From a virus: a stretch of DNA of 28,443 bases. Made by a program: the position numbers and the translations under genes. Shown in pieces: positions 23,724 to 27,884 of this stretch (positions within the stretch are counted from its first letter, which is position 1; every line of letters starts with the position of its first letter). The stretch is from the IMG/VR virus record IMGVR_UViG_3300047550_004219, positions 1 through 28,443 of that record, one strand, 5' to 3'. Below the pieces are notes generated by a model. The model worked only from the letters and a program-made list of their open reading frames with translations. It made no database searches and was not told the DNA's origin.

Positions 23724-23870
23724 CTCAATGCTCTCTGACCTGACACCTCCCCGAGGGCCCCCGCCCTGAATGGGTTGACTTTATCTCGCTCCGTCACTAC
23801 CGTGGTCTCACAAGGGCGAGGTGCTCCAACTCAATCACAGTCACGTCCTCTACCTAGTTCAACTATTGTA
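23724..23870. other. Gap before the DUF932 gene, possible weak promoter
   Basis: About 150 bases. A small GC hairpin (AGGGC/GCCCT) lies near 23754-23767. TTGACT at 23775-23780 is followed after 17 nt by TACCGT, a weak candidate promoter for the gene downstream. No protein-like frame other than the upstream extension of the next gene. Confidence 0.35.
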
Positions 23871-25004
23871 ATGACTTTCTTCATTGAGACTGCCCAGCCT
23901 ACGCACAGTGACACTGACGAAGCTCGTGCCGTTAGTAACATGCGTGCTGGTCTGCACAGACAAGTAACTTCGGGTTACGCCCGCGAACGGCATCTTTTGC
24001 TCACTGCTCCGCCACAGATCGCTATCCAGGCCGGAGGCACCCCGGTCGGTCCCGATGCCTCTCCTCGCCAGGCTTTCTCCGCTGCCGGGGCTAACTTCAC
24101 CGTAATCTCCCGGCCGATCGCCTTCGATTCTTCCCCCGAGGGCGATGCAGACTGGCTCTCTATCGCCTCCCACAAAGCTATCGTTCGCACTGATACATCT
24201 CGCGCCCTGGGGGTTGTAGGCCGCGCGTACGAGCCGGTCCAGAACGAAGCGCTGATCAACCTGTTTGAGTATCTGCGCGAAGACGCTAAGCTTGACAACA
24301 TCGTCGTGCTCGGTGGCGGGCAGCGTGTGTATGCCACAGCCTCGATCGCTCTAGAAGGGGAGGTCATCCCGGGTGATAAGATCCGTCGCTATCTCCATGC
24401 TTTCAATAGTCACGACGGTACCACATCCTTTGGTGTGTTCTTCAGCGACTTGCGCCTAGTGTGCGCCAATCAGCTGGCTTTTATCTCCGGCCGCGGAGCA
24501 CGTAAAGCAAAGGCAGCAGGCCATGGCCTCACGCTGCGCCACAGTCGGAATGTTCGAGCCTTCGCAGAGCGCCTCCCTGAGTTGATCAATCTCCAGACTC
24601 AAACTTTCGCACGCTCGCTAGCGGAGCTGACCCCTCTCACCACCACGCGGCTCACGACCGAGACGGCCCGTCGTGTGCTCGAGCTGACTTATGCCGACAA
24701 GCTGTCCACCCCGGTCAGAGATCGCGCCACCGGGATCCAGCGTGAGCGCACCCTGAGTGACCTGGAGGACAGCCACGTGGCGACCATCCGCAGCCACTGC
24801 TACGGTGAGACTGGGCTGGGCATCGATCCTGCTGACCGTTCGCTCTGGAACCTGTACCAGGCCATTACCCAGTTCGAGACGCACGACACCGGCCGGCTGA
24901 AGGATCCTATCGCCTCGGCCCGCGCCCGCCTCAGTGCTTTGTGGGGAGGAGCCGCCGCGCAGCGCATTGAGCGTGCGCGTGAAGCCTGCCTGGCCCTGGT
25001 CTGA
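23871..25004 (+). CDS. DUF932 family protein
   Basis: 377 aa from the ATG at 23871; a TTG at 23775 would add 32 residues of low-complexity sequence. The core matches DUF932/TIGR03299-type proteins: ADWLSIASHKAIVRTDTSRALGVVGRAYEPVQNEALINLFEYL, GGGQRVYATASI, IRRYLHAFNSHDGTTSFGVFFSDLRLVCANQLAF, then RHSRNVRAFAERLPELI. These proteins are widespread in phages and plasmids, often near replication or accessory genes, with no proven activity that I know. The C-terminal 100 residues are helical. It is the largest accessory gene of this end of the window. Confidence 0.8.
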   Translation: MTFFIETAQPTHSDTDEARAVSNMRAGLHRQVTSGYARERHLLLTAPPQIAIQAGGTPVGPDASPRQAFSAAGANFTVISRPIAFDSSPEGDADWLSIASHKAIVRTDTSRALGVVGRAYEPVQNEALINLFEYLREDAKLDNIVVLGGGQRVYATASIALEGEVIPGDKIRRYLHAFNSHDGTTSFGVFFSDLRLVCANQLAFISGRGARKAKAAGHGLTLRHSRNVRAFAERLPELINLQTQTFARSLAELTPLTTTRLTTETARRVLELTYADKLSTPVRDRATGIQRERTLSDLEDSHVATIRSHCYGETGLGIDPADRSLWNLYQAITQFETHDTGRLKDPIASARARLSALWGGAAAQRIERAREACLALV

Positions 25005-25146
25005 TGCTGCCTACCGATCCCGCCCTTCCGTGACAGGACGTGCGTGAGTCGCAGGCCATCGTCCTCGCAGCCATCGAGCGCTCAGTAGGCTGACACTTCG
25101 CGCGGCAGGCTCTGCTGTAAGTCCGCGCTTACCCCCGTTCATCGCT

Positions 25147-25434
25147 ATGGCCTTAATCACTTTCAAGAATCCTTCACTCATTGCCTGGCTCGAATCTAAA
25201 GGTATCACAGGTGAGTATAAAGACTACGTCACGCCAAATGATGTAGCGCATCGTCACGTCTACGGGCATCTGCCTTACTGGTTGGCTGCCTACGCTGAGC
25301 GTATTAGTGAGGTCTCGCTCCCTCGTCTCACACGTGACGACAGGCAACGGTTGAACGCGGGTGTCATGACCGTTGCGGAGATGGACGCAGCCGGCGCGTA
25401 CATCGCTACGTATCAAGTACGTAGCGCCGGCTGA
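25147..25434 (+). CDS. Csx16-like small protein (possible type III CRISPR counter-defence)
   Basis: 95 aa. ATG start after a 140-nt gap. The order FKNPSLIAWLESKGI, then HRHVYGHLPYWLAAYAERISEVSLPRLTRDDRQRLNAG.MTVAEMDAAGAYIATYQV, follows the Csx16 / VVA1548 pattern as I remember it: (R)HPGAIEWL...GI at the start, V.GTLPVHLAA in the middle, then L.LP...RG.EL....M...GA.L..Y.V. Csx16 proteins accompany type III CRISPR systems and have been reported to act as cyclic-oligoadenylate ring nucleases. A phage copy would be a plausible anti-defence protein. The match is by eye. The basic H/R of the N-terminal RHPG is here K-N-P, so catalysis may differ. The gene ends in strong inverted repeats. Confidence 0.5.
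   Translation: MALITFKNPSLIAWLESKGITGEYKDYVTPNDVAHRHVYGHLPYWLAAYAERISEVSLPRLTRDDRQRLNAGVMTVAEMDAAGAYIATYQVRSAG
25390..25431. repeat. Overlapping, competing inverted repeats at a gene end
   Basis: GCCGGCGC (25390-25397) pairs perfectly with GCGCCGGC (25424-25431), and inside it CGCTACGTA (25404-25412) pairs with TACGTAGCG (25418-25426). The two pairings share bases 25424-25426. They cover the last codons of the Csx16-like gene. Such a switch-like arrangement could control message stability or be a trace of insertion. Confidence 0.5.
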
Positions 25435-25623
25435 GGTAAGCCCCGGGCTCTCACCTCCGGGGCCCTCATCCACACACGGCACTGCGACAACCGTGCGCAC
25501 CACGCATTCTTGCACACTGTGCGCCCTGCGCGCGCCGCGCCAGACTGGGGCTGACCATCCCGCGCCTAAGCAGGCCTCCAGGTGGTCACCCCCCCTTTTC
25601 CCGTCGGCTCGAGCCGTTTTGAC
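25435..25623. other. Gap of about 190 bases
   Basis: Contains a 7-bp GC hairpin (GCCCCGG at 25440-25446 with CCGGGGC at 25457-25463) directly after the Csx16-like gene, without a T-run. The rest shows no convincing gene or promoter. The gap has C-rich runs but no tRNA-like cloverleaf that I can find. Confidence 0.4.
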
Positions 25624-25830
25624 ATGGATGCGCCCATGCCTAGCTTTACTGCGGCTCACCGTGCTTATCAGCTGATCCAAGTTGATACAGGTGTAGCGCT
25701 TTACAGCACCTGCGCCACTACCGATGAGATCCTTTTCGCTAACGAGAACCTCCGCCGCGCCGGCAACACTTGTCGGTTTTTCCCTCATGGATCGTTCATC
25801 TCGCCATCACTGCATGACCACGCTGCGTAG
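25624..25830 (+). CDS. Unknown small protein
   Basis: 68 aa from the ATG at 25624; an ATG at 25636 is also in frame. The product reads MPSFTAAHRAYQLIQVDTGVALYSTCATTDEILFANENLRRAGNTCRFFPHG, mixed alpha/beta with two Cys. No family recognised. The start has no Shine-Dalgarno. It overlaps the next gene by 17 nt in another frame. Confidence 0.5.
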   Translation: MDAPMPSFTAAHRAYQLIQVDTGVALYSTCATTDEILFANENLRRAGNTCRFFPHGSFISPSLHDHAA

Positions 25831-27101: not shown

Positions 27102-27206
27102 CCCACCTCTCCGCTGCCGGCCACCCAGCGGACTGCCCAGGACGTGAGTTCTGGAAGCCCGCATCGTACCCTGCCGAGACCATCTCGGTTATCCACACCA
27201 AGACTC

Positions 27207-27884
27207 ATGACAGCAATCGCACCAGTTATTCGGCTCGTCGGCACCATCGGTGACGACCGCCTCATCGCCACCAACCAGAACTGGATCATTGGGGGGTTCG
27301 GCCACGACTACCTTTCAGCCCGCCGCGAAGCCACCCTCGAGGGCGGCGGCGGCAACGACAGGATCTACGGCAGCAACGGCAAGGACTCGATCAGCGGCGG
27401 CGCCGGCAACGACACCATCGTCGCCGGCTGGGGTGATGACACCATCCACGGCGGGGATGGCAACGATCAGATCACCGCGGAAGACGGGAACGACTATCTG
27501 GACGGCGGAGCCGGGAACGACTTCCTCTCAGGCGGGTGGGGCCATGACACCCTGATCGGTGGAGCCGGCAACGACACGCTGAACGGCATCGGGGGCACCA
27601 GGAACACCCGAGAGAAGCTCCACATCGACTGGCTCACCGGCGGCCCTGGTGCTGACACCTTCGCGCTGTCGAATAACTACTGCCACTTGGGGCCTGGAGA
27701 CTATGCGGTGATCACGGATTTCAACCCCGCAGAGGATCGCCTGCTGCTGTACCGAGGCCGCTTCCAATACCTCCGTACCAGCAACAGCGGCACCGAGCTC
27801 TATGAGGGCGGCGACCTGATTGCTGTACTTCAGGGCTGCGATCTCCAGACGCTGGTAGGTCGACACGTCGCTTGGCAGGGTTGA
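27207..27884 (+). CDS. RTX (hemolysin-type) calcium-binding repeat protein
   Basis: 225 aa from the ATG at 27207 (preceded by ACTC, as many starts here); an in-frame GTG at 27144 is less likely. Residues ~28-130 contain about ten nonapeptide repeats of the GGXGNDXLX kind (GGGGNDRIY, GGAGNDTIV, GGAGNDFLS and so on), which form a calcium-binding beta-roll. The C-terminal part (LTGGPGADTFALSNN, YAVITDFNPAEDRLLLYRGRFQY, GTELYEGGDLIAVLQGCD) is the domain that closes many RTX proteins of cyanobacteria. No signal peptide; RTX proteins usually leave through type I secretion, though that signal is not obvious. Strongly GC-rich and C-ending codons suggest transfer from a cyanobacterium. Confidence 0.85.
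   Translation: MTAIAPVIRLVGTIGDDRLIATNQNWIIGGFGHDYLSARREATLEGGGGNDRIYGSNGKDSISGGAGNDTIVAGWGDDTIHGGDGNDQITAEDGNDYLDGGAGNDFLSGGWGHDTLIGGAGNDTLNGIGGTRNTREKLHIDWLTGGPGADTFALSNNYCHLGPGDYAVITDFNPAEDRLLLYRGRFQYLRTSNSGTELYEGGDLIAVLQGCDLQTLVGRHVAWQG

Follow-up and report, generated by a model that had tools for sequence, protein, structure and literature searches.

A divergent Csx16-like gene in an accessory slot of cyanophages, a candidate counter to type III CRISPR signaling

What does a 95-residue protein, encoded directly behind a DUF932 gene, do for a virus that most likely infects cyanobacteria? The gene lies at positions 25147–25434 on the plus strand of the DNA analyzed here, a 28.4-kb virus record referred to as the window herein. 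An earlier note, made from the sequence alone, had placed its product in the Csx16/VVA1548 family and proposed that it was phage-borne, in a cyanobacterial setting and with no CRISPR locus nearby, and possibly an anti-CRISPR against type III systems. We found that an ATG-initiated ORF of 95 aa corresponds exactly to 25147–25434 and that the motifs quoted in the earlier note (NPSLIAWLESKGI, VYGHLPYWLAAYAE and LTRDDRQRL...M...GAYIATYQV) are all present in it. Relatives of this ORF occur on 26 further IMG/VR contigs, 24 of which were reached by direct search (two as fragments only) and two through a neighboring gene; protein identity to the window protein was 52–67% for the relatives measured. 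Pairwise pN/pS within the family ranged from 0.16 to 0.51. Since these values are low and 26 viral relatives exist, the ORF is coding and under purifying selection, and the low pN/pS rules out a non-coding ORF.

The window carries tail-fiber, endolysin, family A DNA polymerase, primase and exonuclease genes and further encodes a dNMP kinase, ThyX and a sigma factor. Best matches of the DNA polymerase were to Pseudanabaena phages, those of ThyX to the Synechococcus phages S-H1 (64%) and S-CBWM1 (56%), and those of the terminase on a related 72-kb contig to Cylindrospermopsis and Nodularia phages. A clear Shine-Dalgarno motif is absent from most of the gene starts examined, including that of the Csx16-like gene. 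As all three sets of best matches are cyanophages and Shine-Dalgarno motifs are mostly absent, the sequence comparisons indicate that the host is most likely a cyanobacterium. The proposed setting is thereby borne out, in that the polymerase, ThyX and terminase matches identify the window as a cyanophage fragment; the proposed lack of a CRISPR locus also agrees with our scans, as no CRISPR-like direct repeats were found in the window and no cas genes among its scanned ORFs. Elsewhere in the window, the gene at 27144–27884 codes for a protein with RTX calcium-binding repeats (PF00353, 5.1e-29) and contains a 27-base tandem repeat (27342–27494); it has no counterpart in the sister loci compared.

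The assignment to Csx16 holds at the level of the family. Against Pfam, the window protein matched PF09652 (Cas_VVA1548, that is, Csx16) with an E value of 3.5e-5, residues 7–91 aligning to profile positions 5–90 of 91, and this was the single credible Pfam family. Its score of 24.4 bits lies 0.6 under the gathering cut-off of 25. PADLOC likewise returned a Csx16 match for the window protein (9.9e-6) with no other family matched there, and Csx16 models alone for the window protein and its relatives. All nine diverse family members scanned matched PF09652, the best at 1.1e-7. TIGR02620 (NCBIfam) did not match the window protein, and its matches to the relatives L042 and L048 (19–20 bits, with L042 at 20.0) fell below the cut-off of 46.35.

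Taken alone, the window protein had no match in PHROGs or NCBIfam, nor by tblastn among 50,697 phage records, and the link to known Csx16 proteins therefore needed a relative, L023, the most bridging member of the family. Plain tblastn with L023 led to the Csx16 protein of Methanobacterium virus Drs3 (5e-5) and, on an Allomeiothermus plasmid, to a protein with a Csx16 domain (2e-6). Drs3 Csx16 in turn reaches Csx16 proteins of Allochromatium and Aeromonas whose genes adjoin csm6 and cas genes, as well as Csx16 of virus PhiF3 and of an archaeal plasmid that has no CRISPR locus in the stretch examined. When the cyanophage clade was aligned by hhalign to six canonical, viral and plasmid Csx16 sequences, the probability was 97.8% (E 1.1e-12, 93 columns). 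A profile of the six canonical sequences scored the window protein at 12.3 bits, with the best of ∼2,000 shuffles at 11.2, and L042 at 30.7 bits, with the best shuffle at 6.0. This control is clear for L042 and places the window protein near its best shuffle, so the homology is sound via the family and marginal for the window sequence alone. By these comparisons, the window protein is a distant homologue of Csx16 along its entire length. Chance resemblance of motifs was also considered; the profiles, the conservation and the shuffles speak against it. With narrow search patterns, which leave distant cellular homologues possible, we found no relatives in 84,980 bacterial and archaeal species genomes, and no canonical Csx16 in viral contigs with similarly narrow patterns.

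The predicted fold is consistent with this homology. AlphaFold2, run with a 13-row alignment, modeled the window protein with a pLDDT of 90.3 and a pTM of 0.76 as β-α-β-α-β-α-β-α-α-β, and L042 was modeled with a pLDDT of 88.7. Csx16 has been described as a five-stranded sheet with flanking helices (PMC12409355), and the strands and helices of the window model are ordered as in that description. When Foldseek candidates were realigned with VIA-align, CARF or ring-nuclease structures took the first four places and most of the first twenty for the window model, including SiRe_0806 (apo and with cA4), Cad1-CARF and the ring nuclease Sis0455, at Z 4.2–3.6 and with one unrelated dehydrogenase among them. 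For the L042 model, the top 13 rows were all CARF proteins (Z 4.4–3.5). These Z values are low, and other Rossmann-like folds further down score nearly as well. The structural comparison suggested in the earlier note gave a mixed picture: CARF domains rank first by VIA-align (Z ≤ 4.4), whereas plain Foldseek against the PDB and viral models returned no significant match. A search of the PDB by sequence yielded no Csx16 structure, the matches being designed proteins or chance. Both models are small α/β folds, and their likeness to CARF domains, which bind cyclic oligoadenylate, is consistent support, short of proof.

Upon comparison of residues, we found that the cyanophage proteins depart from Csx16 at several conserved positions. 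In six canonical and viral Csx16 sequences, the whole sample behind the word invariant here, R11, H12, H32, G46, L48, P49, R76, G77, E79 and L80 (Drs3 numbering) are invariant. The Arg-His pair after strand 1 has become x-Asn in the cyanophage clade, with the Asn invariant across 13 phage members (K7-N8 in the window protein). His32 of the HLD motif is replaced by Tyr in most members, including the window protein, and is kept only in L024, L042 and L048, of which L042 is the nearest to canonical Csx16. The canonical RG-x-E-L reads RG-(E)LT in most relatives, one residue shorter, and AG-VMT in the window protein. The G and P of the GxLP loop are invariant across the clade. Clade invariants further include N8, W14, K18, H35, V38, G40, P43, W45, E55, P59, R63, R66, R68 and EMDAAGA, and the pattern H-x-x-V-x-G-x-x-P-x-W is fixed in the clade and its own. 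In a small tree, the clade is monophyletic on a long separate branch (support 97/97). The protein length and motif order cited in the earlier note fit Csx16. The changes at Arg-His, His and RGxEL had been overlooked there, and with these canonical residues replaced, catalysis cannot be assumed.

The surroundings of the gene show how it behaves among related phages. Its conserved left neighbor is the DUF932 gene at 23775–25004 (+; PF06067, E 5e-25; true start codon uncertain), and DUF932 lies upstream of csx16 in all csx16-bearing sister loci compared that extend far enough. The right neighbor at 25582–25830 (+) is a small conserved ORF of 82 aa, found by tblastn at 47–59% in nearly all sister loci and without a Pfam match. 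Between the two, a comparison of 27 DUF932 loci and the outgroup L055 defined a variable slot at 25005–25581, which in sister phages holds csx16, a gene of ∼150 aa that we term X150, and/or an HNH gene. csx16 is present in 21 of the 27 DUF932 loci spanning the slot, a fraction that may be inflated because these loci were fetched via the DUF932 gene of a csx16-bearing phage, and it is absent from L087, L093, L094, L099, L103 and L107. It is also absent from the whole 60-kb record of the sister phage L055, whose polymerase is 62% identical and whose slot is otherwise filled. All six loci without csx16 carry X150 (for instance, L093:5443–5892 and L107:5639–6022); 14 loci carry both genes, and csx16 occurs without X150 in the window and seven loci. 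Each of the 27 loci thus has csx16, X150 or both, and neither is present only in the outgroup L055. X150 has no credible Pfam match and no PADLOC match, and we regard it as a candidate second counter-defense gene. HNH endonuclease genes lie in the same slot at L096:5092–5571, where the gene sits between DUF932 and csx16, at L099:1540–2055 and at L107:5065–5550 (PF13392 for L107). For DUF932 itself, no link to anti-CRISPR was found in the literature. Gain and loss of csx16 within a small variable slot fits accessory, counter-defense-like behavior better than a core function, although its presence in most sister loci could suit a general function as well.

Csx16 is a cA4-specific CRISPR ring nuclease (PMC12409355), and a published survey of 28,114 phage genomes found it in two. 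In length, motif order and the G-x-x-P loop, the window protein is like canonical Csx16, whose profile it matches over the full length, and its predicted α/β fold is probably alike as well; it differs in that its gene is phage-borne and away from cas genes, in that the Arg-His and His residues are replaced, and in scoring below the PF09652 and TIGR02620 cut-offs. The Csx16 proteins of Methanobacterium virus Drs3 and of PhiF3 are likewise virus-borne, and among isolated viruses the nearest relative found comes from Drs3 (35.9% identity to L023). Unlike the cyanophage proteins, these belong to viruses of methanogenic archaea, retain the canonical TRH, H and RGEEL, and sit on a separate branch. 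Viral Csx16 is thus already known in kind, and what is new is the cyanophage clade with its rebuilt motif set. Csx16 also occurs on other mobile elements. The uncultured-archaeon plasmid LC711081.1 (84 kb) carries it at L032:4995–5291, where no cas gene is annotated closer than 5 kb. On the Allomeiothermus silvanus plasmid pMESIL02, WP_013159804.1 (L028:8010–10025; 671 aa) carries a Csx16 domain at its N terminus (PF09652, 71 bits) and a segment that by eye resembles a second one (YGHAPMHAAAYAN...). Within 8 kb lie genes for Rad52, ParB, an RNase H-family protein and TnpB; no cas gene is annotated in that stretch, and this protein is possibly a fused counter-defense protein.

Viral ring nucleases that destroy cA4 have precedents. 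AcrIII-1 (Crn2/DUF1874) is used as an anti-CRISPR (PMC12409355), as is AcrIII-2 (viral SAVED), the effect of which within a virus is unproven (PMC12751052). Both belong to families that differ from the Csx16-like protein: the DUF1874 (STIV B116-like) profile had no match in the window protein at Pfam E values up to 10, and the 95-aa protein has no Pfam match to a SAVED domain.

Our analysis establishes the homology, the predicted fold, the phage and cyanobacterial context, purifying selection and the variable occupancy of the slot; beyond homology, CARF-likeness and phage accessory status, we infer the dimer, the ligand, cleavage and the anti-CRISPR effect. We favor, at a probability of roughly 0.55, the reading that a Csx16-superfamily protein, diverged and adapted to phages, is encoded by an accessory gene in a lineage of ∼70-kb cyanophages and removes cyclic oligoadenylate to counter type III immunity. 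This role fits the chemistry of Csx16 as a cA4-specific ring nuclease and the variable genomic slot. Once a type III complex senses phage RNA, the host Cas10 would make cyclic oligoadenylate, most likely cA4. The phage protein, modeled as a small CARF-like α/β domain and presumed to dimerize as modeled for Csx16, would bind the cyclic oligoadenylate, most likely cA4, and would remove it, for which metal-independent phosphodiester cleavage is the likeliest route. Csx1/Can2-type effectors would then stay off and the phage would survive. On our assessment, the gene probably silences the host CRISPR alarm, with cleavage favored over mere binding by about two to one.

The altered residues keep a sponge or another messenger as live alternatives. 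Tentatively, and well short of even odds, the clade may have rebuilt a Csx16-type pocket, losing Arg-His and His and gaining an invariant His/Trp pattern, which would yield an anti-defense protein with sponge chemistry or with a messenger other than cA4. A catalytically dead relative that sequesters cyclic oligoadenylate tightly without cleaving it is unlikely. Loss of Arg-His and His beside a strictly kept GxxP loop and the new H-x-x-V-x-G-x-x-P-x-W pattern does have the look of a kept pocket with altered chemistry, and a slow or sponge-like CARF relative, Csx15, has been described (PMC13148439). Csx15 resembles the window protein as a CARF-superfamily type III accessory protein and possible cA4 sponge, but the two have no sequence match and Csx15 has not been observed in phages (PMC13148439), which counts against a phage sponge. 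Moreover, type III systems are argued to produce messenger in such amounts that sponging may be fruitless (PMC13148439), and as the literature covered does not say which Csx16 residues are catalytic, loss of the conserved ones need not end activity.

We consider it quite unlikely that, as an enzyme or binder of nucleotide signals, the protein has been retargeted from cA4 to cA3, cA6, SAM-AMP, or CBASS or other signals. The fixed, clade-specific changes at conserved Csx16 positions and the long monophyletic branch would suit such a change, but the Csx16 tested so far is cA4-specific and a direct sign of another ligand is absent. A phage protein for housekeeping or host takeover, merely descended from Csx16 or sharing its fold, appears very unlikely. 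Most sister phages carry the gene behind the same DUF932 gene, pN/pS is low, and the tie of the phage protein to CRISPR comes from sequence and context; yet absence from six of the 27 sister loci and from L055 implies that it is not essential, and every credible profile match is to a CRISPR-associated family.

Type III CRISPR occurs in bloom-forming cyanobacteria; in Microcystis, for instance, type III-B systems have spacers against a cyanophage (PMC11855584). In a limited literature search, we found no report of a cyanophage counter-measure to the type III cyclic-oligoadenylate signal. If the rebuilt-pocket reading were true, this would be, within the same limited search, the first Csx16-family counter-defense gene shown in bacterial phages. 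The 27 natural copies in viruses of bacteria, with changed key residues, provide a set for learning which Csx16 residues cleave and if phages meet cA4 with enzymes or with sponges.
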